Position numbers and translations under genes: made by a program
The notes under the pieces: generated by a model
Told to the model about the DNA's origin: nothing
The model's database searches: none
What the model saw: the letters and a program-made list of their open reading frames with translations, nothing else
Shown here: piece by piece, positions 271-53,961 of the stretch
How positions within the stretch are numbered: position 1 is the first letter of the stretch
How the letters are laid out: each line of letters begins with the position of its first letter
Source of the DNA: Lophium mytilinum
Taxonomy: Eukaryota > Ascomycota > Dothideomycetes > Mytilinidiales > Mytilinidiaceae
Assembly (NCBI GenBank): GCA_010093605.1
Contig: MU004182.1
Location: 2,589,195-2,653,194, forward strand
Length of the DNA stretch: 64,000 nt
Direction: 5' to 3'

Positions 271-1366
271 CTAGAGATCAGCGTAACTAACTTTGACATC
301 TCTCACAAGGCCGATTGGGTCCTTCAAATCTACCCATCCACAGTAAGGGCTCGATACGGAGTATCCGATCATTCTTTGAATATTTTCCGGCATCTTCTTC
401 ACGTCCTCAATGGGGTTGGCTAGGAACTGATTCTCCTCCTGCAAATACTTATTAACATGATAGGCTCCCGAGTGTAGTGCAGTAAGAAATATACCTGGCG
501 GAGATAGCCACGACACATGAACGAGCCGAAAAGCATTCTCGTTTTATCGGTCGTATTAGCAGAGCCTTTAGCATACATGTCAGTACGAGTCAGGCAGTTC
601 GAAAAATTCAAGACGTCGAGACAAACCTCCATGGAAGCAGCTCGCCAGCATTAAAAACACATCTCCAGGCTGCATGACCGCGTACACAGCTTTGCTCTCA
701 TCCCCTGGCCCTTCCGACGAGTTATCCAGATGCGAGCCGGGGATGAATCTCGTCGCTCCATTGGCAACGGTGGTTTCGGTCGCAGCTAGGAAGATGCCCA
801 ATGCAGTGTCGCGATCCATGGTGTATTGATCAGCGCTAATCTTCGGAAGCCTCGTGTGATGCAAAGCGTCGTCGCGGTGGAGGCTCTGGGCTCGCGCGCC
901 CGGTCCGATTGCAAGGACCGTGGTCGAGTTTAGCTGCGGAACCGAGACGTAATGCTCCTCCTTGTCTCCAATCCAGGTGGTTGTTCTTGTGGTCAGGAAC
1001 TGGTTGCTGATTTCAACGAAGAGGGGGTGCGCGAGCACTTTCTCTGTGTACGAGGGCGATTTTGCTGGTAGTCCGTTGACTCCTGCATCTGCTGTTAATC
1101 ACTGTTTAACGTTATTCCACGTCGGCGAACCTACGACGCGTCTCTGGGGGGAAGAAGTCGCCTTCCCAGGGCACATCGGCGTCGAGGTATGGTTTTACCT
1201 CCTTTACCATTGTGTCGAGGCTCTCGCGATCTACCAGTCCTCGAATAAAGCAGCCGCCATTTCTAGCAATTGATCGCACGACTTTGTCTGCTGAAGCGGT
1301 GCTCGCGTCAAAGCTGTCGACTGTGAAGCCGTCGGTTGGCTTTGGGGTTTCAACGGCGGAAGGCAT
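271..1366 (-). CDS. Fe(II)/2-oxoglutarate-dependent oxygenase, PhyH/FtmOx1 family
   Basis: Four exons (1366-1135, 1082-627, 565-495, 438-271) join to a 308-residue protein; introns are 52, 61 and 56 bp with GT..AG ends. The joins were fixed by alignment to the paralogue at 7810-8845. The iron ligands of the family are visible: H146-x-D148 in LHRDDALHH and H228 in CFHGG, with R239 placed to bind the 2-oxoglutarate carboxylate. The GATRFIPGSH stretch is also typical. Family members (for example verruculogen synthase FtmOx1) hydroxylate, desaturate or form endoperoxides on secondary metabolites; the substrate here is unknown. It is divergent from the NmrA-like gene at 1966, with a shared 599-bp promoter, so co-regulation is likely. 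The family call is firm; the reaction is inference. Confidence 0.85.
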
Positions 1367-1965
1367 TTCAGAAGGTGTAAATGATCAAGATTCCACAAAA
1401 TTAGATTGCAATGGTACTGAATGCGCTCGCGGGCCGTTGCTTGGGTATCTTACGAGTTAATTAGAATGAAGGAGTCTTATAAACGCTTTTCCCCTGCTGT
1501 AGTTACCCGGTTCTGGCTTGCATATCTATGCGATTGGTGCTCGTGGTCGCCTGCCCGATGGGGCGGAGGATGTGGCGATCTCTCTTTTGAGCCGATTTAC
1601 TTTATTTTAGCGTGAACCTGCACTCTGCAAGGTGCCTTTGGCAAGCAACAACGAGATGGCCTGAGCAACCATGATCTACGAAAGCTTCAACTGTGTGAGA
1701 TTGAGAGCGGTCTTTACGTAACTTCGCTCCTTACGGAAGAGCCAGACAAAAGTGGTGAACAAAGTCTGCCAAAAGGAGTTCGCCAGAGACATCCGTTTGT
1801 CATCATAGAATATGCTTGCTGGAAGTGTATTCTGCTCATGTTTTTATAATCTAAATACATTCTTGCCCTTTCATTCATTCATGTTAGAAGACCCCCGATA
1901 TTCGTTAACTTCTCCACACCATTCTTCAACTTGTTTCTCTAATTTTCTATCTTCAGAGTCAAGCC
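1367..1965. promoter_or_regulatory. Divergent promoter, oxygenase / NmrA-like gene
   Basis: 599 bp without a credible gene between two divergent starts. It carries the 10-mer TATGCGATTG at 1527-1536, which recurs in the divergent promoter at 7553-7562. The short overlapping reading frames here lack family features. Confidence 0.5.
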
Positions 1966-2883
1966 ATGAGAATCGCAATTGCCGGCGCCGGCGACCTGGC
2001 GCGTTATTTCGTCGAGGAGTTTCTGAACGACGGGCATGAGGTCGTGGTGCTATCACGCAGCCAGAAGCCCTGGTTCCAGCGCAAAGATATCACGTTCCGC
2101 ATCACAGACTACTCGATCCCATCCCTAACCAAATCAATCAACGACTGCGAGGGATTGGTATCCGCAATTTTAGACTACTCCATGGCCAGCGCCACAGTCC
2201 ATCTCGCATTGCTCGAAGCTTGCAAGAATTCCCCCGAATGCAAACGCTTTATTCCTTCCGAATATGCAGGAAACACAGACGAACACCCCGACCAACCCGT
2301 ATTCTACTACGCCAACCACGAGCCGGTCCGCAAAGCATTAATAAAGCAGAAAGAGGTCATGTGGACGCTTTTCAACTTTGGCTGGCTGACTGACTATCTC
2401 ATCTCTCCCGACCTTCGATATATCAAAGATATTGGCGATTTTCACCCTGTCCGTTTGGCCGACAAGGCGTTGGTGATACCAGGAACAGGCGAAGAGCTGA
2501 TTGGCTTCACGGCGGCGCGAGACGTAGCCAAGGCCGTCTCGAAGCTGTTTAATTGTGACAGCTGGGAGGCAATCATTTACGTGTGCGGTCAGACAACGAC
2601 CTGGAACGCTGTTGCGGAGATCCTTAGGAAGCGTGGTGTCTCATTGGAGGTTAGCCACCGGTCCGTGGAGGAGCTAGAGAAGCAGATCTCGGATGCCGAA
2701 TCAGAAGACAAAATCATTGCCGCTCAATATGACATCTGGTCAACTTCCGGAGCTGGGTTTCTGCCGCAGGAGAAATTGAAACGGCAAGCCGCGAAGTACT
2801 TTCAAGGCGTCAAGTTTAGAACTGTGGAGGACTTTCTTGATGATGCTGAGAAGTTGACAGGTTGCCAGAATGTTGCTGTGTAG
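1966..2883 (+). CDS. NmrA-like / isoflavone-reductase-like NAD(P)-binding protein
   Basis: Single exon, 305 residues. The N-terminus (MRIAIAGAGDLARYFVEEFL) is a Rossmann beta-alpha-beta fold with a GxGxxxxxx-type nucleotide loop, followed by an acidic/basic switch strand (VVVLSRS) and the RFIPSEYAGN segment characteristic of the NmrA and isoflavone reductase-like atypical SDRs. These proteins either reduce small aromatic or enone substrates with NADPH or sense the NADP/NAD ratio as regulators. In this cluster a tailoring reductase is the more likely role, by context only. The start ATG follows a long pyrimidine-rich leader and begins the fold directly. It shares its promoter with the oxygenase at 271-1366. 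Confidence 0.8.
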   Translation: MRIAIAGAGDLARYFVEEFLNDGHEVVVLSRSQKPWFQRKDITFRITDYSIPSLTKSINDCEGLVSAILDYSMASATVHLALLEACKNSPECKRFIPSEYAGNTDEHPDQPVFYYANHEPVRKALIKQKEVMWTLFNFGWLTDYLISPDLRYIKDIGDFHPVRLADKALVIPGTGEELIGFTAARDVAKAVSKLFNCDSWEAIIYVCGQTTTWNAVAEILRKRGVSLEVSHRSVEELEKQISDAESEDKIIAAQYDIWSTSGAGFLPQEKLKRQAAKYFQGVKFRTVEDFLDDAEKLTGCQNVAV

Positions 2884-3001
2884 ATACGTCAACTCAGAGC
2901 TGGAAGCCGAATCAGACCTTCGCAGGGTTGATTTCTAGTCGGTTTGATCGGAGAGACCGAGTTAATGTTCCATGGTTGTGGTACTAGCACATGTGAATCT
3001 T

Positions 3002-4750
3002 TCATGTGAGAAGAATGTCAATTTTCAAGTCCTCTGCCACCTGTTGTTGCAAAACATCCTCTTCAGGGTTAAGGTCTCGACGATGCCATATCTCTAGAAT
3101 AAGGCCTTCCACGCATGAGGTTGCGCCAACACCTCTGTTGGCTTTCTTAGCAAAAACCTGCATGCATCGACGTCGTAGTTCATCATCCTCGGCTTCGCAA
3201 GCAGTCACATATAGTGGCCACATAAGGCCATCCATCGCAGAATTGTCGTGAAGGTCCTCGACCGCTTCTAGATGATATAGACATTGTTCCACTAGATGTT
3301 GGATTTCTCGCGGCGGCGAGCGGTGTAGAGACCGCTCGTAGTGTATCATGCAAGCATAATACCACGAGCAGGCATGGTGTCGTGTAACCTTCTCCAATGC
3401 TGGGTCGGGGGACGGGAATCGCGTGGTGCTGGGATTCGCCAAGAGCAGGGTGTTCCGCAGTACTACCAAATCCTCATCCGTGGGTCGATGGGCTGACATA
3501 GAAAGCCTGCTTACATCGAAAATGGCTCTCAATACAGGTTTAGTAATCCCAAAGAGCTTTTCTAGGCAGTAGTCATTGGCTGGGAAGCTCGACGTGGCAG
3601 ATGACATGATATCCATTTCCCAGTCGTCTTCAAAGAAGGAGGACGAGCTAGCTGCAAACTGGGTGTGCTGATCTTGCGAATATCCGATGATCTCCACGCA
3701 ATGGAAGAGCTGGCGCAAGATGAGTCCCCCTTGACTCTCGTTCCACTTCCCATGCAGAGAGTTAATCCAATCTCTCCCTCCACGGAGATGGATGCGCCAT
3801 TGGCATGAGCGAGCCGCGACAATATCGATTGAAGTCATCAATATCATAGAAGCGAGAATAGCCTCGTGTTGACCGTGCGAGTCTTCCATCATACTTTGAC
3901 GCAGATATCGAAGTCCGGCTTGGTGATGTTTCGCGGCTATGGCCTCATCGTGCTCATCAGGTGGGTCTTGCAATTGAGACCTGTTGAATGCAGCAAAAGC
4001 GTAGATAGAATGCAGCAAAGCACAATGTCCCGGAAGCCTATGGGCAGACGCTGCGGATTCTAGCACTAGAGGAATAACAACTTCGCGGAAAGGATTGTCG
4101 GGATGGTTGGTTGAGATCATCAGTCCACTGGCAGAAGTGACCCAGAATCGCAGCAGCTGGCGTTCTTCTGCAGACGACACGGAGAGAAATGGGAGTAAAT
4201 AGCGTGACCAAAGGTGCTTAGACGTGGGATAGCATGTTTCAGGGTCGAAAGGATCTCCAGGTGACGCCGAACAGCTGTCCTGTGCTGACGTTGAGTCTGC
4301 TTCAGAGGGCGAGGTGACATCAAGTTGGAGTCCAGGTTCATTATCCCCGACTGTGGGAGCGCATGCGAAGACGGTATAGGGACCCTCGACCAGCTCCATA
4401 CCGTCATCAACTTGGGGCGAGTCGAGTCGCTTGAGGATGGCGCTGAGATAGAGCTCGTCGAAGATGGGATTCCTCATGTCCGCATCATCCAGCATCAACC
4501 GCCGTTTCTGCTTTACATTCTGCAGTTCGCGTCCTGCACCGTCACCGTTGCCGGCCGCGTCGTCCCATACAAGCCGGATTTCGTAGCCCTCGCAGGGCCG
4601 ATCGAGTCTGGTGCACCGGTTGCAGGAAGGGCGCGTAGCATCGCATTTTACGCCACGTGAACGACAGGTCCAGCAGCCCACATATGTCTTGGTCCGCTTC
4701 ACAGCGGTACGAGCACGTGCATCTGGTCGGGATGCTTTAGCTCGAGGCAT
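3002..4750 (-). CDS. Zn2Cys6 fungal transcription factor
   Basis: Single exon, 582 residues. The binuclear zinc cluster lies at the N-terminus: C26-x2-C29-x6-C36-x6-C43-x2-C46-x6-C53, preceded by a basic stretch (RARTAVKRTK). The rest is a helical regulatory region with the look of the Fungal_trans_2 family (for instance the ALLHSIYAFAAFN and AILASMILMTSIDIV segments). It is transcribed opposite to the NmrA-like gene and ends tail to tail with it. As the only DNA-binding protein in the cluster it is the natural candidate for its local regulator; that is inference from position. No target site could be assigned. Confidence 0.88.
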   Translation of the reverse strand: MPRAKASRPDARARTAVKRTKTYVGCWTCRSRGVKCDATRPSCNRCTRLDRPCEGYEIRLVWDDAAGNGDGAGRELQNVKQKRRLMLDDADMRNPIFDELYLSAILKRLDSPQVDDGMELVEGPYTVFACAPTVGDNEPGLQLDVTSPSEADSTSAQDSCSASPGDPFDPETCYPTSKHLWSRYLLPFLSVSSAEERQLLRFWVTSASGLMISTNHPDNPFREVVIPLVLESAASAHRLPGHCALLHSIYAFAAFNRSQLQDPPDEHDEAIAAKHHQAGLRYLRQSMMEDSHGQHEAILASMILMTSIDIVAARSCQWRIHLRGGRDWINSLHGKWNESQGGLILRQLFHCVEIIGYSQDQHTQFAASSSSFFEDDWEMDIMSSATSSFPANDYCLEKLFGITKPVLRAIFDVSRLSMSAHRPTDEDLVVLRNTLLLANPSTTRFPSPDPALEKVTRHHACSWYYACMIHYERSLHRSPPREIQHLVEQCLYHLEAVEDLHDNSAMDGLMWPLYVTACEAEDDELRRRCMQVFAKKANRGVGATSCVEGLILEIWHRRDLNPEEDVLQQQVAEDLKIDILLT

Positions 4751-5197
4751 GACGAGAGCTGATCATGAGTATCAGGCGGCGTCCGACGGAAAACCTTGAG
4801 AAGGGTTGCTCCCGATCCTATAGTAGCGAAGGTGACTACTACCGGTGAGCGCCTGATGGAGAGAAGAAAAGACACAAGGCATGTTCAGGGTAGAAGGTCG
4901 GGCGGCAGAGATGCAAGGAGAAAGTGTCCACGAGGCTGTCGTCATGGCCACCGGCTGGATGAGGAGGTCCAAATAGGCTTGCGTTAGAGCAATTCAGAGG
5001 CTCGCTGTCGCCTGCCGATTCTGTCCCCTGTCTGGCACTCGCTTCCAGTGCGATCATTCGGCCCGAGATAAGCTGAGAAAGTTACGGGCTCGTTGTCGCC
5101 TACCAATCCTGTGCTACATATCCCTCCTTGTCGAAGCCGGGCCGGGATACGATTCTCGGAATCGTCGTTACCTGCCGCTTCTGTCTCGCCCTTTTCT
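4751..5197. other. Upstream region of the Zn2Cys6 gene with three imperfect repeats
   Basis: 447 bp without a gene. Three related segments of about 27 bp, based on GTCGCCTGCCGATTCTGT, lie near 5002, 5086 and 5157. A minus-strand open frame covers 4984-5247 but its N-terminal part is only a translation of the transposon end at 5198-5250, so it is not called as a gene. Confidence 0.4.
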
Positions 5198-5300
5198 ATT
5201 TGTCGGGTGCAAAACAGCACGGAATCCTTGGCACAACTCTCTGCCACACCAAAATAATTCTTAGGAATACTAACTATAAGATTTATTAATAGAATTAACT

Positions 5301-6248
5301 CTAAAAACTAGGGGACTGATAATCCTACACCGGGTTTTTCCTCCATGTACACCCGTTTTCTCCTCCACATACACCCATTCACGTCTGATCTTCTAATTGG
5401 TCCGGAGAGATCCTCCAAGGCCTCCAATTTGCTCGCTTAGGCTTACCACTAATTCCAAATGCTCTCTCTAAGTGCGGCGTGGCCACAAGCAATCACAACC
5501 TTATCTTTAATCTCTGCCTTTATAATACACCTCTTACTATAGCCCTCCAGCCGCGCCCGCCACGGCTATACAACAGCCTAGAGGAAGCCGCAGCCTCCAG
5601 GGCTCGGAATCAATTAATTCAATTACACCTTCTGGTTAATCTCGGGCCAACAGTAGGGACGTGCCACCGTGCACGGTACTATATGGGGTTCGAGATCAAC
5701 TCAATCGCACCCTCTGGTTGATTGATTCCGAGCCCTGGCAGCCTCGGCCTCAGGCAGCGCCAGCGCTGCTTCCTGATAAGGAGCTCCAATATTAGAAGGT
5801 ATTGTACGAGCAGTATATAGAGGGGTGGATGGATTAGGATAGCTAGGGAGGCGCGGCGGCGATGTAGGGGGGCTAGATTTAATGCGGAGAGGCCGTAATA
5901 AGGTCAGGATTTAACTGTTTTAGTATACTTATAGGTATATAGGCATGTAGGTAGTAATACAACAGCCTATATACTCTATAGGAAACGGGAAGTATATATA
6001 GTAAAACAGGTATGCTATATAGCCCTGCTAAACTACGGCCTTACGTACGGCCTTAATAGGCTGCTAGAAATAGTAAGAATACACGATGGAATGGGAAGAC
6101 TATGCAACCTTACTATTTTAAGCGCCGGAGCTTCCTCCAAGGCCTCTGGACCAATTAGAAGATTAGACGTGAATGGGTGTATATAGAGGAGAAAACAGGT
6201 GTACGTGGAGGAAAAACCCGGTGTAGGATTATTAGTCCCTAAAAACTA
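5301..6248. mobile_element. Inner non-autonomous DNA transposon with long TIRs and 10-bp target duplication
   Basis: Arms 5311-5403 and 6148-6238 form an inverted repeat of about 91-93 bp (core AATCCTACACCGGGTTTTTC). The direct repeat CTAAAAACTA lies immediately outside both ends (5301-5310 and 6239-6248), which is what a 10-bp target-site duplication would look like. Long arms with a 9-11 bp duplication fit Mutator-like elements; an alternative reading is TA duplications of the mariner type. Differences between arms are mostly C/T or G/A, as expected of repeat-induced point mutation. The interior (about 930 bp in all) has no transposase. It sits inside the 53-bp-TIR element, so it arrived later. 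Confidence 0.7.
5579..5755. repeat. Internal palindromic unit within the inner transposon
   Basis: CCAGGGCTCGGAATCAAT near 5597 returns inverted as ATTGATTCCGAGCCCTGG near 5721-5740. Between them a second pair, TTCAATTACACCTTCTGG and CTCAATCGCACCCTCTGG, is in direct orientation. It looks like a third small element or a partly inverted duplication, worn by C-to-T changes. Confidence 0.5.
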
Positions 6249-6908
6249 ATAGAGTATAGATATAAGCTACTAGAGTATATTACCTAGGCTTTCCCTTTTA
6301 TTAATTATTTTTAAGGGCGTAAATCTAGTTGTAGTAAGAAGATATAATAGGTGCCGCCCGCGGAAGATACCGCCCCCTGCTGCCCTATATTGCACCCCTG
6401 CTATACCCCTGCCGCCCGCCTTTTCTATACCTTTCTTTACCTAGAAATAACTTCTCTTTCTATAAATATTTAGAGCTTATACTTTTAAGATAAAGTAGGT
6501 AGTATATAAAGTAGCTTCTAGAGAAGTTTAAAGGTAATAACTCTATGTTTATACCTTTTAGTTGTCAGAAAACGTGTGGTGTGGCAGAGAGTTTTGCCAA
6601 GGATTCCGTGCTGTTTTGCACCCGACAAATGGGGAACTCAATTCCCACCTGCAGCACAGCGCAATCCTACTCCACTTCACTTCAGTTCTGTTCCCCTATG
6701 CGACTGAGGACCCTGGATACCCCGGATGATAGCCGACCAGAACACATTAATTCCATTCGTTCCTACCCCACGTGTCATGGGTGGCAATGAATAGCACTGC
6801 GCCTTGCAATTGGTGGAAGAAACACGGGTGGATTTGCTAATGAATCAGATAACCCAGATGCTCCTCAATCCTCCTACCGCCTCGCGAGCGTTTCCTCATT
6901 TAGGAGTC

Positions 6909-7346
6909 TTAATTCGGCAGTACTGCGTAGGCTGTAATCTCGACTCTCGCCCCATCCGCTAGAGCCTCAACTCCAACGCCCGCCCACGCGAATCTGTTCT
7001 TTCCCAAGAACTTTTCAACCACCACTTCCAACGCCTTGTCCGCCGCCGCATCCAGCCCGACATGGTAGCTTGTCATCTGGTAAACTGAATTGAATCCATC
7101 CGTGACACCGGCCGCTGCTAAAGAGTCGACTACGTTTTGAAACGCCTGCAGATACTGCTCTGTCAGGTCTGTCGGCAGTTTCATGTCCGCCGTGTAGCCT
7201 GTTTGGCCTGCCGTTACTACCGTTCGCATGTTTGCTGGGAGGACCACGGCGCTGGAGATGTGATATGTATCGCTCAGCTTTTCCCCTAGACCGGGGACGT
7301 TGAAGCACTTGACGCCGTGCTTGTTGAGAGGACTTGAATACTCCAT
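6909..7346 (-). CDS. RidA/YjgF/UK114-family protein (enamine/imine deaminase-like)
   Basis: Single exon, 145 residues, the usual size for the family. The C-terminal strand RVEITAYAVLPN matches the conserved (V/I)EIEAxAVLP ending of RidA proteins, and R118 in NRFAWAGVGVEAL is placed like the catalytic arginine. RidA enzymes hydrolyse reactive enamines and imines released by PLP enzymes, giving ketoacids and ammonia. The class-III aminotransferase in the same cluster is the likely source of such an intermediate (inference). It is divergent from the oxygenase at 7810 over 463 bp; a TATATA box lies about 105 bp upstream of its start. Confidence 0.82.
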   Translation of the reverse strand: MEYSSPLNKHGVKCFNVPGLGEKLSDTYHISSAVVLPANMRTVVTAGQTGYTADMKLPTDLTEQYLQAFQNVVDSLAAAGVTDGFNSVYQMTSYHVGLDAAADKALEVVVEKFLGKNRFAWAGVGVEALADGARVEITAYAVLPN

Positions 7347-7809
7347 GTCGATTGAGTGGGAAAGGTTTATTTGAAACGAGATAGCGTGAGGTGTTTATGG
7401 CGAAGGTCGAATAAGATGTTGGTAGTCAAATACAAGAGCATCGTGCATGGCAGTATATAAGCTGTAAATGGAAAGGAACTCCAACTAATGCCGCCAGGCA
7501 GTCGACAACGAGCACTGGAGTTCTCCACATCTCTCTCGATAACACCGTAGCTTATGCGATTGTACTTTCTCAAGGCGGTTTTGGATTGCAATTCCTAGCC
7601 GAAAGGCGATGACCAGAGTAGCTCATGTATCCGGCAACTGTCAACGAGCATCTTTTCGAGCCTTCGCATGTAACTCCTCCCACCCAACAGCCCTAAAAGG
7701 CACACATACGAATGTTCCAGAGAGTCCATTTCCATTATTTAGGAACGTCTGTCTCTCCATCTACATAGTTGCTAGCACTACCATCATCGACTAGACACAC
7801 AAAATAACC
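7347..7809. promoter_or_regulatory. Divergent promoter, RidA / oxygenase
   Basis: Contains GTATATAAGC at about 7451 (a TATA-like box serving the minus-strand RidA gene) and TATGCGATTG at 7553-7562, identical to the 10-mer at 1527-1536. No gene seen. Confidence 0.5.
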
Positions 7810-8845
7810 ATGTCTTCGACCAAACTCTTCGAGAACGATCTGAAAAGACCTCTGCCCAAGGTCGAAGTCTTCGACAGTGCATCTGTCAGCCCAGAACAAA
7901 TTGTGGCCGCCCTCACCAAAGCTGGTGGCTGTGTAATCAAGAATGCCGTATCTCCTAGCGACCTATCTCTTATCCAAAAAGATGTTCAGCCCTTCCTCGA
8001 TGCCGACAAACCATGGGAAGGCGACTTCTTTCCACGCGAAACACGCCGAGTCAATGGGCTAGCCGCCAAGTCCAAAGTCTTCATGGAGAAGATCGTCTGC
8101 TACGAGCCCTACCAATCTGTCTGTTCGAAACTTCTCTCGAGCACAACGAAAAACTACCTAGGCCAAGATCTTCAAGTCAGCACCAGTCAACCCCAGCTCA
8201 ACAACACTATCGTCTTCGCAATCGGGCCGGGAGCTAAGCCACAGCCGTTGCATCGCGACGACATGATACACCATCGAGTCTTGAAGCAGATGAATGCAGA
8301 GGATTATGTGATCGGGCAGGACACAGGCATTGGCTTTTTTGTGGGAGGCAGGAAGACAACCAAGGCGAATGGAGCGACCAGATTCATTCCCGGTTCGCAC
8401 CTCTGGGACCATGATACACCACCAAGTGAAGACCTCACCTTTTACGCGGAGCTTGATCCCGGTGACGCCTTCGTTATGCTGTCTTCTTGCTACCATGGAG
8501 GATCGGCGAACACGACTGAGGATGAGGTACGATTAGTGTACAGTTGTTTCATGACGAAAGGCTATCTCAGACAGGTACGTCTTAGCTTCCATATCGTATC
8601 CTACAGCAGGATAACGGCCAATGAAGCCTCTCCCCAGCTGAATGTCTGGCGCTAATCTGCAACTGTCCAAATAGGAGGAGAACCAGTACCTGAACAACGA
8701 CCCTGAAAAGCTAAAGGAACTCTACGATGATACTATGCTCAGACTCATCGGGTATAACCTTAGTGCACCGTTCCTAGGCTGGATCAAAGAGGGCCATCCT
8801 CTGGCCGCCCTGGGACGACAACAGCCACTGGGAGACATGTATTGA
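7810..8845 (+). CDS. Fe(II)/2-oxoglutarate-dependent oxygenase, PhyH/FtmOx1 family (second paralogue)
   Basis: Two exons (7810-8574, 8675-8845; 100-bp intron) give 311 residues. Iron ligands are H148-x-D150 (LHRDDMIHH) and H229 (SCYHGG), with R241 for 2-oxoglutarate. It is clearly a paralogue of the protein at 271-1366: the segments RETRRVNGL, NGATRFIPGSH and HGGSANTT are shared. The intron after GYLRQ is at the same place in both genes, while the other two introns of the paralogue are absent here. Two related oxygenases in one cluster suggest successive oxidations of one skeleton, or a duplication with divergence. The ATG at 7810 has a good context (ACCATGT). Confidence 0.87.
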
Positions 8846-9827
8846 GAGACTGGGCGCACAAACCAACTGGTGGGAAATTCCACTCGTGTATATCTAAGGA
8901 GGCTAGAGATAGAGCAATGACTTGAAACGAGATTAATTTGTGTTTGCTGCGGTTGAAGCATCCCCGATCATGTTTTATGAATGATCTGTAAAAGAAGTAT
9001 CTCCACTAGTCTGTGAAACTTTCAGAGATTGTAGCATATTCGAACACAATACGACGCTTTGAATCGGAGATCGGCTGCCGCTTTTCGGAAGAGCGTGCTA
9101 AACGATCTCCTTGTCGACAGTAAAGATCAGAATACATGTGACTAGACCGCCATGTCGTTTTGCTATGTTTGTGATCTGGGGTACGATCTGATATACCACG
9201 GCTCTTGACTATCCTCTTGCAGGAAGTTTGAGATGAGCAAGCCCAACCCAAGAATGCCATGCACTTACTTTGATCCTTCGAGGGAAACGTACAGCGATGG
9301 TAGACTGATTGACAGAGTATTGAGATAAAAGACATGAAACGAGATTTCAGATGAAATGATCTAGACGAAGTGGGGGAGAAGTGCGGGGAGAGCTCGGGGG
9401 TCCGGATTCAGTAATCGACAGCGACTTTGGAGCTACTTTGTCTAGACTAGTCTACTGCAGCTTAGATTCTACAGGCGGGATAAACTAGATCGATTCTGAT
9501 AAACCATTCGTAATCTCGCTTCATCGGAAATGGGGTGCATGGACTGACAGAGCGACTAGAAGGGAAGGACTGTATATTTTTCTCTGAAGGAAGAGAGTAT
9601 TGGAAAGCTATAGCGAGCTTATCCGGGTTTCAATTCTCTCAATGTTCAAACGGTTTTTCTCTCTGCTAACAATCTATAGATAGAGGACTGCATCGCACAG
9701 ACTTTCCAGCTTCGCACTCCTCGACCTGTATCCTCTTGACTCTTTTTCTCGTCTACCATCCTGTCAGACCGGATATCATCCTGAACAATTCGGAAGCGTC
9801 ATATCCCAGACATCACCACTGCCCGCC
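8846..9827. other. Gene-free stretch between oxygenase and SDR
   Basis: About 980 bp holding the 3' region of the oxygenase and the promoter of the SDR at 9828, including a pyrimidine-rich leader at 9700-9820. No family-like reading frame or repeat seen. Confidence 0.5.
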
Positions 9828-10595
9828 ATGACGGTCAAAAACCTGCAAGGCCTCAGCGCCATCGTCACCGGAGGCTCCAGAGGCATAGGCGCCGGCATCG
9901 CGCAGGAGCTCGCAAGCCGTGGTGCCAACGTCCTCATCACCTACCAGAGCGCCTCATCTCAAGCCGAAGAAGTCGCCTCCAAGATCCGAGCCCTGGGCAG
10001 CGAAGCGCTGATCGTGCAGGCCGCTGGCACAGACAAGGAAGCACCCGCTCGGATCGTGCGTGCCGCAGTAGAGAAATGGTCTCACATCGACATCATCATC
10101 AACAATGCCGGCGCCGGCGACGACTGCCTGCTCAAAGATCTCACATACGACCTGTGGGACAAGATCCTCAACACGAACCTACGCATGGCGACCTTCCTGG
10201 TGAAGGAGAGCATGCCGCATCTTGGCAAGGCGCCGCGCATTGTGAATATCTCGTCCGTTATCGGGCGCATGGGTGGCTCGTGGGCAACAGCGTATTGCGC
10301 GTCGAAAGCGGCACTTGAAGGGGTCACGAAGGTGTGGGCTGCGGAGCTTGGACACAGTCACAACGCAACGGTGAATTGTGTGAATCCGGGGCCGGTGGGT
10401 ACGGATATGTGGTTGCGCGATACCGATGCCGCTGTGTTGGCGGAATGGGATACTAAGATGAAGGAGACGCCGGCCGCGCCGAGGATTGGCACTGTGGATG
10501 ATATTGCTCAAATTGTCGCATTTTTGGCTAGTGAGGAGAGTCGATGGAGTACGGGTAGCACTGTTAATGCTAACGGGGGCATGTGCTTTGTATGA
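9828..10595 (+). CDS. Short-chain dehydrogenase/reductase (3-oxoacyl-ACP-reductase-like)
   Basis: Single exon, 255 residues, a classical SDR. TGGSRGIG (14-21) binds NAD(P), NNAG is at 92-95, and the catalytic set is S143 in NISSVIG with Y156-x3-K160 (YCASK). The C-terminal NPGPVGTDM and the ASEESRWSTGSTVNANGG ending are typical of fungal secondary-metabolite reductases. An R at position 18 after the glycine-rich loop favours NADPH. It would interconvert a ketone and an alcohol on the cluster's substrate; the substrate cannot be read from sequence. Confidence 0.87.
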   Translation: MTVKNLQGLSAIVTGGSRGIGAGIAQELASRGANVLITYQSASSQAEEVASKIRALGSEALIVQAAGTDKEAPARIVRAAVEKWSHIDIIINNAGAGDDCLLKDLTYDLWDKILNTNLRMATFLVKESMPHLGKAPRIVNISSVIGRMGGSWATAYCASKAALEGVTKVWAAELGHSHNATVNCVNPGPVGTDMWLRDTDAAVLAEWDTKMKETPAAPRIGTVDDIAQIVAFLASEESRWSTGSTVNANGGMCFV

Positions 10596-11006
10596 GGTAA
10601 CTTGGTGATGGTGGATATTTCGTTACATAGAATAGACAAGCATTAGAATACCCCTTAAATCGCCTCAATGAAGTTAGCGTTAATCCTCCAAGCTCGGTTG
10701 GGCTTCGTTTCTGTCTGCTGGCTTACTCAGCAGCTCCATCTTCCCTCCTGTCGCTCAAGAGGTTTGTTCCTCATTCTCATTAAAAAAAAAACTTTTGGGC
10801 CCACGTTTCGTTTGAGTCGATTCCTGTGTGCCTGGCGCTCACTACAGATATAACGATGAGCAAGTAGCCGGCACTAAGAAGGATATCAGACGTGCAAATC
10901 ACGTTCAAATCGAACAGCCGATTGATCTGGTATTGCGTTTTCGTTCTATAAAACCGGGCGTCAAGTCATCGACACCCTCTTTGCAGATACTGGTATGTCA
11001 TAATAT
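10596..11006. other. Tail-to-tail intergenic stretch
   Basis: 411 bp between the convergent SDR and aminotransferase genes. It contains a run of ten adenines near 10783. No gene or repeat seen. Confidence 0.5.
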
Positions 11007-12644
11007 CTAATGAGCCTTATGCCACACCTCCCCCGGAATCGCATCCTGATATTCCACGACTTCGTTCAGTGCTTCCCTGATAATCCGAACGCCCCTTTCC
11101 AACTGCTCATCCGTCATCACCATGGTCACTCCCATCCTCAGGCGCCCCCCCAACGGGTATAGTAGCAGTCCTTTACTCAAGCACAAGCCTCCGATCCTCC
11201 TAGCCGTCACCCTCCCTTCCGGGTTCTCTCGAATCGGAATGCTGAAATCTGCGCCTCGAGCTTGGATGTCAGCTACATATGGATGCTGCCTCAAATCGGT
11301 CGTCAACTCCAGGAACTTCTCGCCGAGCTGCCTTGCTCGTTCCGCCATGTTCTCCTCGTCCAGGACCTTCAGTGCCGCCTCAGCAGCTGCGATTGCCATA
11401 GGCGTGTGTGCGAACGTCGAGCCGCTCTCATACGGTCCCACAACATTCATCATTACGTCGTCTCCCAGGACGAACGAGGCCGGGTACGCGCCGCCGGTCA
11501 TGGATTTGCCGACGACGAGCAGATCAGGGCGGACGTCTGGGCCCAGATGGTTGAAAGAAAAGAACTTTCCGGTCTTGCAGGATCCCATTCGCACTTCGTC
11601 GGCGATGAAGGGGATGTTGTACTTCTTGCAAAGGTCATAAATCCCCCGGGCGAAGGAGACTTCTTCTTCATAAGTGCTAAGTACGGAAACTTGTTAGTGA
11701 TACACTATCGGAGGGATAGAGTAGGCGGTACGTACTTTCCCGTATTGCGTATGCATTCTAAAATGATGCCTCCCACGCGCGCATGGTGCTCTGCAAGACA
11801 GGCCTCCATGTCTTCCAGATGGCCATACCGTAGCAGCGTCTTCGTCGACGGATTGACGTTAGTATGTTGGGCGCTGTCGAGGCCATAAGCTGTGAGAGCT
11901 GTATCAGTTTCATTCCTAGCATGAGCACATCCAGGCTGAAGTACCTGTTCTGGCGGGGCTAGGGTCTTGTAGATTCCAGACCCCTGAAGACAGTCCGTGG
12001 TAGCTGTCCGAGACAGCTAGAATCAGTACCTCCTCCGCGGGAATGCCTCTGACCTCATAAGCATGACGCCTGGTGATCTTGCAAGCCAGATCAGCTGCCT
12101 CCGATCCGGTGACCATAGCGGAGATCTTGTCGTATTTGAACCTCTTGCACATCATTTCAGCAAAGACGGGCCAACGCGTGTTGTGCGTTGAAGTGTTTAT
12201 GAGGTAGGCTAGAGACCATGTCAGCCCTCATCTGTCAACGTATCTCACTGGATGCGGCCTACCTTTGTTGAGCTGCTCCACCATCGCTGCGACTATCTTC
12301 GGATGGCAGTGTCCTTGATTGCCGGCGCTGAACATGCAAATGAAATCGAGGTATTCTTTGCCATCCACATCCTATGTCACTTCAGTCCTGGATTCAACAG
12401 CTAAAGAGCTTTGGCGGCAATTTTCACGAACCCATAGTTGCGCACCCTTGCCTCTATCCATGAACCCAGGCAAGGGCGTAAAGCCACCAACGGTGTACTC
12501 CGCTTCAGTATCAAGCAGCTGCTGTGCTCTCCTTGACAGCACAATCTGCTTCCGTTGGACTGCAACAGGCGCCATATGACTGCTGTCCATTGGTGTGAGA
12601 TTCACGCCAGCGTGATCGACTTCTTCGACGGTGAGTGATGCCAT
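11007..12644 (-). CDS. Class-III PLP-dependent aminotransferase, ornithine-aminotransferase-like
   Basis: Five exons (12644-12432, 12371-12263, 12208-11945, 11889-11736, 11676-11007) give 469 residues; the four introns are 54-60 bp and all joins keep frame. Diagnostic features: [17 protein letters not shown] (cofactor phosphate region), D273 in IADEVRMG (pyridine nitrogen), and K304 in [12 protein letters not shown], the Schiff-base lysine. Overall order and the [21 protein letters not shown] segment resemble ornithine and GABA aminotransferases. The preferred amino donor is not known. Being next to an amino acid permease and a RidA protein, it probably acts on an imported or internally formed amine (inference). 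Confidence 0.87.
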
Positions 12645-13373
12645 TTTGCAGGTTGAAGTTGTATCGTGGTTAGGGATGAATCATAGAGATGAATGCTAAA
12701 GAAACGCAGATGCCTCGAGTATGAAATCCTATAGATATATATACTGTGGACTAAGATAGCTCGCTATCGAGACTTGCATCCTGGCGCTTTTTCGGTCGTG
12801 ATCCGTGCTCCGTTATGAGCATCGATGGAGCAGTGCCTGGGATGTGACAAAATGGTAAGTAACAGCGATGGCTTGGCGCGCTGTCGATTTCCCGAATCAG
12901 CGGGCTCAGCACATAATGGAATTAGCTGGGCTGGAATAACATGACCCAGTTAGCGAGGCACCGCTAGAAGCTAATAACAAAAAGCAGATAAAGGAGATTG
13001 CCTGAGTTCTGGGACCCCCGGAGATCATGACATGGCTATTATGATCACTGATTAGTAGATCTTGACCAGTTTAAAACGTCATATTAGCTTTCTGAGCTGC
13101 AGTCAGATCACAGATGTAGTTTGATAGCTACGGGCACATACATGTAGAACATTCAATTGAGCGTAATTTTGATCCTCTATATACTGAACCTACGCCACGC
13201 TGAAGCAAGCACCGCAATACATTCAATCCAAGACCATACCCTCTGATATTCGAGTCAACTAATAAAGACACTGTATATTTTAACAAGTCGTGAATCCGCT
13301 TCGTAACTTCACAGAAAGTACATAAACATCTAGGAGTAACGGTCCGATCTCCAACTTCCCACCGACTTCCCGC
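12645..13373. other. Promoter of the aminotransferase and 3' region of the permease
   Basis: About 730 bp, AT-rich in its distal part (13050-13300). No gene, inverted repeat or tandem repeat stood out. Confidence 0.4.
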
Positions 13374-15031
13374 TTAGAAACTCTCCTGATTCATTGCCAC
13401 CGGCTCTGTGTATCTAGTCTTCGAATATGCGAACCAATTGACCACGGCGCAGAAGAACACACCGCCTGTGACAGCAGAGGCGTAGTTCATGGTCGACGCG
13501 GTCACTGGCACGTATGAGGGGAAACAAAGCCAGACGGTAATGAAAGGCATCCAAATAATCGATATGATGTTGAAGTAGATGCCGCTGCGACCTAGATTGA
13601 AGTTGCGCTTGGAAGGAAATGCATTCGCTCGGCCGGCATAGAGCAAGCTTCCGACGACCAGGATGTAAGATAAGTAGCACATGACGATGCCTGCGCCGAG
13701 AATCGCGTTTATTGCAGTGGTTGAGCCGAGAATGATAGCGCCTATGGCGACTATAAGTAAGACACCGGATGCAACCGCGTTGACGGGAAGCTCGTAATAT
13801 GTGTTGACTTTGGACACCCAGCCGGAGAGTGGCAATGCTCCCTGTCGTCCCACAGACCACAGAATCCGAGAAAAGCTGGTCAACAGACAGATGGCCGCAC
13901 ATAGCATGACGAGTATGTAGACCAGAATTGCGATGATGGTAAGGGCCTGGGAGTCCAAAGAATCCAGTAAAAGCTGAGCAATCGGCTGCCCTCCGATAGG
14001 GGCCAAGAGATTGGCCGGGCTGATAATGCAGAACATATAGACCAGAACCAGCGGCAATCCTGCGAGTGCGCTCATGAGAGCGCTTCCGAACATGACTCGG
14101 GGAATGTTCCTCTCTGGGTGTGGGATCTCATCAGCGAGATGAGCGGCGCCCTCGAAACCATTGACAGCAGTAGCACCAGGCAGCAGACCGAGGAAGAAAA
14201 CTACGCCGTCCGACTTCCATCCAGTCATGTTGACGAGATCGGCAAAAACGAACGATGCGGATTGTTTCGGGTGAGTGCGGACTAGGAGCACAATGAGCAC
14301 GAAGAGTGCGCCAGTGTTGATGAAGACTACCATGCTCTTGAGCATGAATGGATATAACTTGAAAAGTGGTACGTTGAGAGCGAAGGCGACGGCTGCCGAG
14401 CCAATGTAGAGGACATAGTATTCCCATGGTTGCGCAACGAATGTCGTTTTGATCACCGCTACTAATGCCCAGATGAGCTGAGAGGCGAGAAGGCAAGTCG
14501 CAGCTGTCAGGAAAAAGTATGCAGCGCTGACAATCCAAGCAGCTAGATAGCTGAGGCCGCGTGCGTATTTCTTGTGTGCCAGGACTGAAATCCAGTAGAT
14601 TTGACCTATAGTAGGAATTTGCGGTCAGTGATTGCCTCGCTCAGGGGTAACTTTCCGTTCTTGAAGTCTTTTAAAACAACTGGAATTGAGAGGATATTCG
14701 TACCTGACGAGTGAGGGTAGACAGCGGCAATCTCAGCCAGCGATAGGCAAACGCAGAGATTACAGCCCACCGCCAAAATATACCCATAGATGAAGACAGG
14801 ACTTCCGCCTACTCCAATGACACTTGTAAGGTATGCGCCAACAGCAAGCGGCGTCGAAGTCAATGAGTACTGGAGACCCAAACTGCTCCAGAGACTGAAG
14901 GACTCATTCAACACTTGCGGTGCTCCAACCTCGCGCGTAGCACCGACGTCTATATCCAATTGACGATGGGGTTCGGAAACATCTTTGCCGTCATACAACG
15001 GCATCTTGTGGTCCTTTGAGGTGGTAGACAT
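13374..15031 (-). CDS. Amino acid / GABA permease, APC superfamily
   Basis: Two exons (15031-14704, 14605-13374; 98-bp intron) give 519 residues. The frame extends upstream only with a TTG, so the first ATG (MSTTSKDHK) is the start. The protein has a polar N-terminus, the PHSSGQIYWISVLA segment that matches the P-x-S-G-G-Q-Y motif of fungal GABA/choline permeases, about twelve hydrophobic segments, and GFEGAAHLADEIPHPERNIP, a conserved loop of Uga4-like transporters. It likely carries an amino acid or amine across the plasma membrane. Its orientation, head to head with the SDR at 15831, links it to the cluster. Confidence 0.87.
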
Positions 15032-15830
15032 TTCGTATAGCAGGAGAATGATATTCAAGGTTGAAGGTTAAGCGGAGATGATATCTTAAGCAGGAGGCAA
15101 GACAAGACATTTGAGCAGCGTAAGTATATACTCACGGTCTATCATTGATACCACGCGATATGGAATGAGATCTTAGGAGATTGAATAGACCTAGCGTATC
15201 TTTGCTCGCCAGTCTTAGAATATGCCCGCTGTAATTCGTTGCACACATCCCGCGCTGGGAAGAGACATCGAAAAGGCAGGCGACAACGACGCGAAAAGCT
15301 TGAAAGCTCACCTTGAGAACTGCGACGCGAGTTTCAGCTAGCTCTATAGACGAAGCTTGATAGCGATAAGGAGACTAAGAAATAGGACTGTTCCGGCAGT
15401 CGTGAGCGAGAGGCGCGCGATAACACACGCCACTCCCAATGCGGGCCTCAGATGTGTGCAGGGCCTGGATGTGCCCTATTCACGATACTACTCGGGCCTT
15501 TCCAGCCCCCTGCGTAGTTCGTGTCCCGGATGGCGTCAAACGATAGGCGATAAGGACTTCAAAATCCTTCTTCTTCTTTAAGCAACAAGAGGCGACCAAC
15601 AAAACTGCCCTTGTAGAAACTCTGGGAAACTGACAGCGCGAGACTGGTGCGACGATGGGTTCTACAACCAGGGCAACGCGAATTCTTCAGCAGACTCCTA
15701 GACTATGCACCATTTGTCGTCCGTGCCTGGAAGACTCTTCGGCCATGACCATAGGCATATAACCCACGTCTCCGACTTTCAGATGCATTGATCGATCAGG
15801 ATTTTCATACTTGCGTACTCTCGTCCCAAA
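15032..15830. promoter_or_regulatory. Divergent promoter, permease / SDR
   Basis: About 800 bp between divergent starts with no credible gene. Neither the 10-mer TATGCGATTG nor a clear CGG-triplet palindrome was found here by eye. Confidence 0.4.
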
Positions 15831-16917
15831 ATGTCGAACATGTTGAAGTAAGCATTGCCGTGAGCCCCAATTCGAAGCACAGTTCTCCAAGCTGATCAGT
15901 CGCAATTTTTAGTCTCCAAGGCCGGGTTGCCATCGTCACAGGCTCATCTTCTGGAGTTGGTCGTGCTATTGCACTCGCACTGGCAAGCGAAGGCGCGTCA
16001 GTCGTATGCAGCGATTTGACGCACGACTTGCGCCCGGGAGGATATGAGACCGTGACAACTTCGACACACGAGCTGATCGCGAAGACAGGCAAAGCTATCT
16101 TCAAGGAGACTGATGTTAGCTCGCCGCAAGATGTGGAAGCGCTGGTCGCATCCGCTGTTGCCGAGTTCGGCAGGCTAGATATGTACGTGTATCAACATCA
16201 GTTCTGTTCAAGTCGAACAGGCCGGGATGAGAGAGGTAGGATAGCTGATATTGCGAAGTTTGGTCAATAATGCAGGAGTCTTCTGTGGGCAAAACAAGAT
16301 TGCAGAAGAGCCCTTGGAAGCCTTTGAAAAGACCATGGTAGGGCAATTTGTAGGAATGGCGTGATGACAGAAGCGAAGTCTAATCGTTCGCAGGCCATCA
16401 ATACCCGAGGGACCTTTCTCGGGATGAAGTTCGCCATCGCACAGATGATGAAACAAGAACCACGATCTACCGGGGATCGTGGCTGGATTGTGAATATCTC
16501 CTCGATTGGCGGCCTGGTAGGCCTTTCAATGGAACGTAGGTTGGCCAATTTCATCTCTACTTATTTCCTGGCTTCTCTTCTCTTCCCTACCTTCATAAAA
16601 ACATTAGCTAACGCTCATAAGCATCCTATTGTGCGAGCAAAGGCGCTGTGACCAACCTAACCCGACAAGTAGCGCTGGACTATGCCCCTCATAAAATCCA
16701 TGTCAATGGTGTGTGCCCCGGCTTCTTGAAGACGGCAATGGTTCGATCTGCGCTCGAAGATGCAGCTCTCAACGAGGAGCTGCATGCTGCGTCACCATGG
16801 CCGCATTTAGGCTTGCCCGAAGATGTGGCGAAGGCGGTGCTGTACCTTTCTGGCGATGGTGCTAGTTGGGTGACAGGTGTAATGTTGAATGTGGACGGTG
16901 GGTACTGTACAAGGTAG
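15831..16917 (+). CDS. Short-chain dehydrogenase/reductase (five exons)
   Basis: Exons 15831-15847, 15913-16182, 16259-16337, 16394-16535 and 16622-16917 give 267 residues; introns are 65, 76, 56 and 86 bp. The first coding exon is only 17 bp and was recognised because it completes the Rossmann start (MSNMLNLQGRVAIVTG). Motifs: TGSSSGVG (15-22), NNAG (99-102), S148/S149 in NISSIGG, Y162-x3-K166 (YCASK), and the C-terminal VMLNVDGGY. It is a classical NAD(P)-dependent SDR, near the cyclopentanol dehydrogenase/3-oxoacyl reductase type. It is much more intron-rich than the intronless SDR at 9828, so the two are not a recent duplication. It is the likely right border of the cluster. Confidence 0.87.
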
Positions 16918-43079: not shown

Positions 43080-43814
43080 TTTGGTGGGCGTGCTGAGGTC
43101 TGGTGTTGGTGCGCCGGCTGCGAATGGCATCGACTTGCAGGTGGAATCGAGCGTCGGGAAGGGTCACGTGATGTATTAGGCGGCACCACTGCCGGCGCGA
43201 ATGAAGAGCCTCGAGAGCTCCCTGTCGGTCCCTGGACTTTAGCATCAGGCTAATGCTCGAGGACAGGCCTAGATTGCTGCTGATTGCTTCCAGAAATACT
43301 ACAGCCTTGCTAATTGCACTCGAAAACACACCATTATCGTCTTCGCCCATATGCACATTTAAGCAATGGCCTGCGGGGTAGGTGTTTTTATCATGTGCCA
43401 CAGCCTTCTCTGTTGCCTCGCCCTTGGAGGTGAGGGTGAGGCCGGCCACTATTCTGGACCTACTTAAACGCCATCCTCCCCAGATGTCTCCCTTTCCGTC
43501 CGGTATGTAGCTGCTTTTGCTGTCTGATTTCGCACGGCTGTACTCTACCTACGTCTCCAATTGCGGAAGATGCTGCGCCATTGAGTCCCGAGCCATCAGC
43601 ACCCTTCAGGCGTCCTGCGCCCCTCCCGCACTCCAGCCTACCTCTTCGCGCACCCATCTGTGCTGCTCCAATTATCTGGAATCTAGGGGCTCTTTTCCTT
43701 GCAAGCACCCTTGAGGTGGTGGTGATTTTTCACCAATCTGTGTCTGACGCCTTTCACCACCATCAGGACATCCGGACATCACGACCGTCACACCACCCAC
43801 AGCCTTTGGACAAG
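43080..43814. promoter_or_regulatory. Divergent promoter, Vps5 / Pro-Gln-rich protein
   Basis: About 735 bp. The open frame of the plus-strand gene reaches back to 43581 but only from a TTG; no ATG-initiated conserved part precedes 43815. Confidence 0.45.
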
Positions 43815-52576: not shown

Positions 52577-53961
52577 GTTGAAAGTTAGATGGATGACAGT
52601 CTCCAAGCTCAGGTAGAGGAAGAGACCGGAAGCTGGTTTCAAGGGGGTTCAAGGGCAGAATGATGTCTTGGAGAAGTTTTGATTGTGAAGTACATAATGT
52701 AAGGCTGACTGTATTGATAGCCGTCGCCTTGGTCAGCTTTGGGATTGCAATGCAATAATAACTACTGTTTGTGTTGTGTACCCCGCGGTTTTGAACGCTA
52801 TACGCCTCCACAGGGGGCATGAGAAAGGTGGCACTCTGTTCTACATGGGTGTGTGCCCTTGTATGCCATCACCGAGGGTGCTTAAAAGCATTTCGGAAAT
52901 CCAATATAGAGTAGAAGTTCGTCCCTCTAGGCCCTGGTGTCGCGCTGAGGTGTTTCAAACGACGGTAGAAAGGTGCACATAAGGGATCGCGTGAAGCGTG
53001 GCAGTTAGGTGTTAATAGAAAATGGCAGTAAAGTATCCACACACTATTTATATTTATATGCTTACTATGGTACCTAGGTACGCTCGTTTAGCGCCGCTTG
53101 AGGTCCCATAGCATGCTATTGTTGTGCATGAACTACCAGTTTTGGCAAGCCTGACAGCGCTCTGGGCCACCTCAAACGGTGCTGAACCGCTAGAGTGGGC
53201 CCTTTCCCCAACCTAGGTATGCAGTGTGTCGATATTTAGATGAGGCCAATGAGAGTTGGCCATTCTACCCGATCTTTTTCAGAACTATGTCTGCGCACCT
53301 TGTACATCCTACCAATCCATTTATAGCATCTTTAGCTATCCGTCATCGGCATGTCTACGATATAGATTCGCAAACAGCGATTGATGTCTTCTTCTCCTCT
53401 TGGTCTCCGCTAGTCTTTGAGGCAAGTGAGCTCGAAAAAGGCGGAAAGGGCGCATATGAGCGCATATCAGAGGCAGAGCCTTATCGGGCCACATAGCCTA
53501 TGTTTTGATATCTTTGTCCCTTATATAAGCACCAATTGCGAGGTTGCCTACGTAAAGTCTAGCCAATCACAAGGCATATTTATCAACGTCGTTGCCCCTA
53601 GTAGCGGCGCCATATAGACTTCCTCACCCCAACATCACTCCCACACTCATCTCAGCCCTTCCTAGGCGCACGAATAGACAACCATTATTGTTCACCGTAC
53701 CACGGGTGACTCTTCACTTAGAGGTAAGAGATGATGAGTCACGCAAGTCATTCTTTTCTAGCTGCGAGGTGCCGGCCGTTGTTGCCTGAAGTACACCGCT
53801 CTTCCTATATTTGCTTGCTATTTCCGCCTTCCAAAAGGCAAACACCAGTCCTTCATCGGCTGGCCCAATTTCACTTCACTCTAATCACATCAGTCTTTCC
53901 TTCAGTCATTTCCCTAGTCTCATTCGCTTCACTTCATCAACACGCTCACACCACACCCGTT
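52577..53961. other. Gene-free stretch
   Basis: About 1.4 kb, including the promoter of the DUF2828 gene. AT-rich near 53030-53070. The open frame of the next gene reaches back to 53731 with an ATG, but the N-terminal part is not conserved-looking and runs through a pyrimidine-rich leader. A weak inverted repeat lies at 53071-53219. Confidence 0.4.
53071..53219. repeat. Imperfect inverted repeat, possible worn MITE
   Basis: TACCTAGGTA at 53071 recurs inverted (ACCTAGGTA) at 53211-53219. Further in, AGCGCCGCTTGAGGT at about 53090 pairs with ACCTCAAACGGTGCT at about 53169. The overall length of about 150 bp and arm layout suggest a small transposon remnant; no target duplication is clear. Confidence 0.4.

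Follow-up and report, generated by a model that had tools for sequence, protein, structure and literature searches.

A nine-gene fungal cluster with a shared promoter motif and a tentative role in the conversion of a small amine

A cluster of nine genes was analysed at positions 271-16917 of a 64,000-nucleotide stretch of DNA (the window, C2:2589195-2653194), which belongs to a genome of 43.18 Mb in 24 contigs whose intron structure and gene families point to a filamentous fungus. The sequence supports the nine genes as one regulated unit and not a chance grouping, in that four of their six promoter regions share a motif. The favoured reading, held tentatively and a little short of an even chance, is that this unit would serve the uptake and C=N-centred conversion of one small amine or amino acid, for assimilation or detoxification. 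Spliced gene models and Pfam searches place all nine genes where the preliminary description had them, with intact frames and with model ends that coincide with 271 and 16917, and the gene models also bear out its three divergent pairs (PhyH1/NmrA, Rid/PhyH2 and APC/SDR2, named as in the list below). All nine families score above the curated Pfam cut-offs. The NmrA match is marginal, with 27.7 bits against a cut-off of 27, and NAD_binding_10 scores better on the same protein. The nine genes are:

271-1366, minus strand: PhyH1, PhyH-family oxygenase, 308 amino acids (aa), 4 exons
1966-2883, plus strand: NmrA-type NAD(P)-binding reductase, 305 aa, 1 exon; SwnR-like by primer peptides
3002-4750, minus strand: regulator with Zn2Cys6 and Fungal_trans_2 domains, 582 aa; its own promoter has two motif copies
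6909-7346, minus strand: Rid-family (YjgF/L-PSP) protein, 145 aa; Trp121 replaces the catalytic Arg
7810-8845, plus strand: PhyH2, PhyH-family oxygenase, 311 aa, 2 exons
9828-10595, plus strand: SDR1, short-chain dehydrogenase (SDR), 255 aa
11007-12644, minus strand: class-III aminotransferase (PF00202), 469 aa, 5 exons; ornithine-aminotransferase-like, with substrate residues altered
13374-15031, minus strand: APC-superfamily permease (AA_permease_2), 519 aa, 2 exons
15831-16917, plus strand: SDR2, short-chain dehydrogenase, 267 aa, 5 exons

Comparison of the promoter regions showed that GGCAGGCGAC recurs in three of the six. It was extended to the 16-bp GGCAGGCGACAACGAG, which is found in four of the six regions and covers seven of the nine genes, in agreement with the earlier proposal of one regulated unit. 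At up to two mismatches the window contains seven matches to GGCAGGCGACAACGAG, six of them in the cluster promoters (4132 bp), where 0.45 would be expected by length. These six sites are:

1540-1555, minus strand: PhyH1/NmrA divergent promoter, 1 mismatch
1640-1655, plus strand: PhyH1/NmrA divergent promoter, 2 mismatches
5001-5016, minus strand: regulator promoter, 1 mismatch
5089-5104, minus strand: regulator promoter, 1 mismatch
7497-7512, plus strand: Rid/PhyH2 divergent promoter, 1 mismatch
15275-15290, plus strand: APC/SDR2 divergent promoter, 1 mismatch

Genome-wide, five of the six places among the matches listed at up to one mismatch fall in these four promoter regions. The sole listed place outside them, C14:618774-618789 (L016:4774-4789), is upstream of an open reading frame (ORF) that by eye is glucosidase-like. 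At up to two mismatches 51 places are found, against 32 for a reversed control pattern, and 44 sites with two mismatches lie outside the cluster. Looser scans, confined to the window, gave weaker results: eight matches for a 15-mer at three mismatches, a number reached in one of 100 shuffles, and 19 matches for a 12-base core at two mismatches against 5 expected, 7 of these being in cluster promoters and 12 elsewhere.

Paralogues of the cluster genes are mostly not scattered in the genome. Sister cluster A (C15, 1.193-1.203 Mb) contains NmrA (52% identity to the window protein), PhyH (53-55%) and APC (31%) paralogues together with a copper amine oxidase and a Zn2Cys6 regulator; its NmrA protein is also SwnR-like, and no synthase was seen there (L007, C15:1192001-1202000, and L008). 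Sister cluster B (C7, 42-56 kb) contains a Rid gene (38%) divergent from a PhyH gene as in the window, an APC permease, a GMC oxidoreductase and a Zn2Cys6 regulator, with gentisate-type degradation genes on its left side that were named by eye except for a cupin match. This locus (C7:38001-58000) lies about 40 kb from the contig end, and its PhyH protein groups with SwnH1 and SwnH2, not with those of the window. Sister cluster C (C3, 2.372-2.381 Mb) has two divergent PhyH genes, a Fungal_trans_2 regulator, an HODM_asu-like protein (oxidative N-demethylase family) and an APC permease, which is followed by a gene that by eye is ABC-transporter-like (C3:2364001-2384000). At locus D (C15, 1.543 Mb; L014:4781-9168), a Rid gene (51%) is divergent from the gene of a regulator that shares 34% identity with that of the window along almost the entire protein, and an old-yellow-enzyme family protein accompanies them.

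All three sisters with a permease also hold a regulator and a member of an amine- or alcohol-oxidising enzyme family, and the sister clusters look like variations on a theme of permease, PhyH, regulator and exchangeable oxidative enzyme. With the C3 pair taken as one locus, three of the five non-window loci of this type of PhyH gene (the same subfamily) have an APC paralogue within 10 kb. If the loci are treated as independent, the binomial tail is 1.2e-5 on the basis of the 23 other APC loci that were found, and 2e-4 under an assumed number of 60. The copper amine oxidase, the oxidative-N-demethylase-like protein and the GMC oxidoreductase of these clusters accord with the amine or amino-acid chemistry that had been suggested for the window cluster.

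Several points weigh against the reading of a regulated cluster for amine conversion. The motif was derived from the same sites on which it was then counted, and its discovery was therefore repeated on sets of random regions from the rest of the window, which consist of mixed coding and non-coding DNA and may overlap one another. At three mismatches four or five regions were obtained in 17 of 150 random sets, and at four mismatches the observed six regions were equalled by 9 of 150. Only the strict version of the motif is telling, since looser versions are matched by some of the random sets. At two mismatches four regions were reached by 2 of 150 sets. With the refined consensus at one mismatch, four regions were reached in 1 of 400 random sets, with four sites against the five observed; four regions together with five sites were reached in none of the 400, and none of 200 shuffled promoter sets yielded any. 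The promoters of SDR1 and the aminotransferase contain no motif at up to four mismatches, so that the membership of these two genes rests on position. Zn2Cys6 factors usually bind CGG pairs; GGCAGGCGACAACGAG contains no such pair, and a scan for CGG pairs found no spacing present in more than three of the six promoters. Among the paralogous loci, D contains no PhyH gene, and the PhyH loci at C15 0.565 Mb and C2 1.654 Mb have no APC gene within 10 kb. The sister permeases are only about 30% identical to the window permease, no closer than unlinked ones, and old duplications may account for part of the co-location. Lastly, a reductive SwnR-like enzyme fits synthesis equally. That unrelated genes merely lie side by side here can hardly be credited, for although each of the families is common in filamentous fungi, the shared motif and the repeated co-occurrence at sister loci speak against a chance neighbourhood.

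Under the favoured reading of uptake and C=N-centred conversion, the APC permease would, judging from its family, import an amine or amino acid. PhyH1 and PhyH2, members of an Fe(II)/2-oxoglutarate (2OG) enzyme family with their metal ligands and 2OG-binding Gln in place, would hydroxylate the imported compound, possibly beside the nitrogen. The class-III aminotransferase may pass the amino group to a keto acid and so give an aldehyde able to close to a cyclic imine, and the NmrA reductase, which resembles SwnR in short peptides, might reduce a C=N or C=O intermediate. SDR1 and SDR2 could interconvert hydroxyl and keto groups, the Rid protein may bind a pathway intermediate instead of hydrolysing imines, and the Zn2Cys6 protein would switch the genes, including its own, through the 16-bp motif. 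No new carbon skeleton would be built by the cluster. Assimilation or detoxification is preferred, as a lean, over synthesis because the three permease sisters each pair with a different oxidative enzyme, two of which are of nitrogen-oxidising families. The permease, the amine-oxidising families in the sisters, the fact that no synthase was seen and a make-up similar to the FDB clusters described below speak for assimilation; the SwnR-like reductase and the relatives of the PhyH proteins in specialised metabolism speak for synthesis.

If the cluster is biosynthetic, which is rather unlikely, it might make a small hydroxylated N-heterocycle, derived from a pyrroline or piperideine, from an amino acid without a synthase and in a manner similar to part of the swainsonine (SWN) pathway. 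The aminotransferase would then produce a semialdehyde, which cyclises to an imine for the SwnR-like reductase to saturate, PhyH1 and PhyH2 would hydroxylate the ring, the SDRs would set the stereochemistry, and the permease would move the precursor or the product. The C15 sister, in which a reductase of this kind is accompanied by a copper amine oxidase, another possible route to a cyclic imine, is in favour of such a pathway, as is the likeness of the NmrA reductase to SwnR.

The genes of the SWN cluster are given in a passage of PMC5473758 as swnK, swnH1, swnH2, swnN, swnR, swnT and swnA, and the hybrid nonribosomal peptide synthetase-polyketide synthase (NRPS-PKS) gene swnK is, in the text of PMC9030584, the basis for inclusion as an SWN cluster. 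SwnR is reported to convert 1-piperideine-6-carboxylate (P6C) to pipecolate, and the SwnH enzymes to hydroxylate, in swainsonine producers (from a passage of PMC12195284). Silencing of swnT led to less toxin export in one species (an excerpt of PMC10051870), and SwnT has been suggested as an amino-acid importer in another (excerpts of PMC10051870 and PMC11052177). SwnR, SwnN, SwnT and SwnH were compared with the window proteins through peptides translated from primers printed in passages of PMC12195284 and PMC11052177, not through full sequences, and p denotes the share of 1000 shuffles reaching the score as a single-test value. Three of the four swnR peptides match the NmrA protein, 18 residues in all, and the fourth has no match: FYFATHE/FYYANHE at position 113 (score reached by 0 of 1000 shuffles), EPIREM/EPVRKA at 119, with a one-residue overlap with the first (13 of 1000), and IGWLAD/FGWLTD at 138 (0 of 1000). 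An A622-like reductase used as a control has one weak match to a swnR peptide (p 0.041). None of the four swnN peptides matches well, one doing so weakly at p 0.042. For the window permease, one of six swnT peptides matches at p 0.007, one at p 0.042 and four not at all; another swnT peptide matches the C15 permease exactly. None of four swnH peptides, from four of the eight primers printed in the two papers, has a match. By these short peptides the NmrA protein is SwnR-like, which, with the reported P6C reduction, favours biosynthesis of the SWN kind. A structure prediction of this protein without an alignment had a predicted local distance difference test (pLDDT) score of 37 and was not used.

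Like the SWN cluster, the window cluster has two PhyH-type oxygenases, a SwnR-like NmrA reductase, an APC permease with a SwnT-like peptide and an aminotransferase. The preliminary description had recognised no described cluster in the combination, part of which turns out to parallel the SWN accessory set without swnK. Unlike the SWN cluster, that of the window has neither swnK nor a nearby ketosynthase (KS), its PhyH proteins, which group with NvfE and have 26-33% identity to SwnH1 and SwnH2, are no orthologues of SwnH, its aminotransferase is of class III (PF00202) whereas SwnA is called an aromatic aminotransferase in a passage of PMC5473758, and it has in addition a Rid protein, two SDRs and a regulator. 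A swainsonine cluster proper was rejected on the absence of swnK and on the PhyH proteins not being SwnH orthologues. A remnant of a swainsonine cluster after loss of swnK is very improbable: the SwnR-like reductase and the permease with its SwnT-like peptide do lie beside PhyH proteins, but these proteins group away from the SwnH pair, the aminotransferase is of another class, the Rid protein, regulator and SDRs are outside the seven SWN genes, and all nine genes are intact. The same nine-gene combination was not found in the open-access literature under the terms used; synthase-free fungal clusters and each of the families are already known, and this combination seems new in the literature searched.

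The lactam-degradation clusters FDB1 and FDB2 of Fusarium verticillioides share with the window cluster an NmrA-like gene, an amino-acid transporter and a fungal transcription factor (as described in a passage of PMC10512309). Unlike the window cluster, they contain a lactamase, an amidase and a dienelactone hydrolase, which have no counterpart in it.

PhyH1 and PhyH2, which had been considered FtmOx1-type oxygenases, are 46% identical to each other, and the best match of both among solved structures is NvfE, followed by SwnH1 and SwnH2. This proximity is consistent with biosynthesis of the SWN kind, although the 26-33% identity to SwnH1 and SwnH2 and the lack of swnH peptides count against it; identity to NvfE is about 35%. 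The E-values to NvfE are about 1e-54 and 1e-55, against 2e-9 and 2e-14 to FtmOx1, and the NvfE and SwnH1 matches are some 20 to 45 orders of magnitude below FtmOx1. FtmOx1-type identity was rejected on these far weaker matches, and both proteins are better described as NvfE/SwnH-like. In a tree of nine rows, with three weak forks and some long branches, PhyH1 and PhyH2 form a group with the C15 paralogue and NvfE (95/98); SwnH1 and SwnH2 are paired (100/99), and the C7 paralogue is placed next to this pair (81/85). The iron triad and the 2OG-binding Gln are kept in PhyH1 (H146/D148/H228 and Gln143) and in PhyH2 (H148/D150/H229 and Gln145), and both should therefore be true 2OG oxygenases. The 2OG-binding role of the Gln is taken from a passage of PMC6030086, which also places NvfE in a secondary-metabolite pathway. 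NvfE (fumigatonoid B endoperoxide isomerase, 9vmf), the closest solved relative, has the same iron triad; unlike PhyH1 and PhyH2, it has Glu149 for the Gln and works without 2OG, and unlike in the setting of NvfE, no terpenoid or PKS genes were seen at the cluster. Bacterial and archaeal genomes searched with the PhyH alignment gave 164 pattern matches, none of which was confirmed.

A KS search of the whole genome gave 21 matches, merged to 11 loci, the sole match on the contig of the cluster being 2.1 Mb away. The genome has 18 PhyH matches, of which 15 were counted and 3 dropped as second pieces of genes already counted, and no KS lies within 360 kb of any of the 15. Condensation domains have 20 matches in the genome, the nearest on the contig being those at C2:2155630-2159934, which are roughly 430 kb left of the cluster. 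The earlier statement that no backbone synthase is seen holds for PKS and NRPS near the cluster; terpene and DMATS families are absent among the proteins scanned, no genome-wide search having been aimed at them. It is improbable that the cluster is an annex that tailors the product of a PKS or NRPS encoded at a different place in the genome. The secondary-metabolite role of NvfE and the PKS and NRPS genes elsewhere in the genome, known from the KS and condensation-domain matches, would agree with such an annex. Against it stand the distance of every counted PhyH match from a KS, the position of the sole listed outside motif of one mismatch (C14:618774) by the glucosidase-like ORF, and the dedicated permease and aminotransferase, which tailoring would not need.

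The nearest family of the aminotransferase is ornithine aminotransferase (OAT), according to TIGR01885, human OAT and the PDB search, and OAT-like class III membership is in favour of SWN-like biosynthesis. In OAT numbering from the alignment, the protein keeps the pyridoxal phosphate (PLP) Lys292, Asp263, Glu230, Thr322 and Arg413, but Tyr55, Arg180, Glu235 and Gln266 are replaced by F, L, T and R, which counts against such biosynthesis. In OAT, ornithine is anchored by Tyr55 and Arg180, and Arg413 has Glu235 as its partner (as stated in a section of PMC9136103); since Tyr55, Arg180 and Glu235 are changed, the substrate is probably other than ornithine. A true ornithine aminotransferase was rejected on these four residues and on a TIGR01885 score of 320.4 bits, below the cut-off of 378.4. 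Bacterial three-gene azasugar clusters likewise combine a class-III aminotransferase and a dehydrogenase without a scaffold synthase (from a passage of PMC8382821). Unlike in those clusters, no phosphatase family was found by Pfam among the nine genes and the azasugar aminotransferase signature is absent, with only 3 of its 16 positions present. An azasugar cluster was rejected on both grounds, which also stand against SWN-like biosynthesis.

For the Rid protein the proposed role of a RidA that clears enamines does not hold, as Trp121 aligns to the catalytic Arg of rat PSP (1qah), and a RidA imine deaminase was rejected on this loss. Both Rid paralogues in the genome also have W at the catalytic place in the alignments, and have as neighbours a PhyH gene in one case and a regulator paralogue in the other. 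In the RidA subfamily this residue is Arg105/107. W at its position marks Rid4 and Rid7, judged unlikely imine hydrolysers (in a passage of PMC4433059). Trp121 is a single-residue likeness to Rid4/Rid7 and no subfamily assignment, because in the text of PMC5619798 Rid1-7 are said to be prokaryotic only and the Rid7 non-deaminase verdict comes from the one Rid7 protein that had been tested. Among PDB entries labelled as deaminases, the best-scoring one, 8qom, likewise has W at this position; since two sister entries are shown with R, 8qom is probably an engineered variant. A PADLOC scan of the Rid protein gave no match. The absence of the deaminase residue in this protein and two paralogues points to an uncharacterised role of such Rid proteins.

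On the left, PhyH1 is adjoined by an O-methyltransferase (Pfam; L005:8090-9630). The left flank also has a 1083-aa ORF that we take to be BCAS3-like and that has no Pfam match, and a mitochondrial-carrier-like ORF, judged by eye; by eye these two ORFs look like housekeeping genes. On the right, at 19170-17235, lies an acyl-CoA dehydrogenase that also has a cytochrome b5 domain, beyond which the genes are mostly ordinary or unassigned. Both neighbours were rejected as members. The O-methyltransferase has no motif near it at up to two mismatches and is probably outside the regulon; the acyl-CoA dehydrogenase likewise has none near it and contains one four-mismatch site inside the gene. The right flank (19.2-64 kb) has 30 stop-to-stop ORFs with a length of 180 aa or more, and no synthase was found among the 18 of them that were scanned. 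The preliminary description had pointed to the left for a possible backbone gene, and none was found in translations of the nearest 20 kb of the 40 kb fetched. Its overall interpretation thus stands in part: one regulated unit, amine chemistry and no backbone gene on the left are retained, while the RidA deaminase, the FtmOx1-type oxygenases and the unrecognised combination are not.

A wider suggestion, speculative and on balance doubtful, is that the SWN accessory genes are one instance of an older, recurring fungal module that needs no synthase and carries out C=N chemistry on amines taken up from outside. This module would have multiplied within a genome to form several clusters, each with its own nitrogen enzyme, and the swainsonine pathway would have arisen from it once swnK joined. 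If so, the window cluster would lead to hydroxylated N-heterocycles, or start from them, without a synthase. Most tools for genome mining take a backbone synthase as their starting point, and synthase-free clusters are therefore likely to be overlooked. Several such clusters in one genome, with families in common with an alkaloid pathway, would show a hardly charted class of fungal nitrogen metabolism, and the sister clusters would make the origin of the swainsonine accessory genes testable. The promoter motif offers a direct handle for testing the regulon.

Between the regulator promoter and the Rid gene lies a nested repeat element (5198-6630). Its outer inverted repeats are at 5198-5279/6549-6630, and those of the inner element, 96 nt long, are at 5312-5407/6144-6239. 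It has at least 105 matches in the genome (40 of 84 candidates scored), and at four places the outer parts are adjacent and the inner element is absent. In the right part of the window, the open frames at 43440-46541 and 47080-48759 (1033 and 559 aa) have no Pfam match, and an ORF of 902 aa at 53728-56436 contains DUF2828 and DUF7788.

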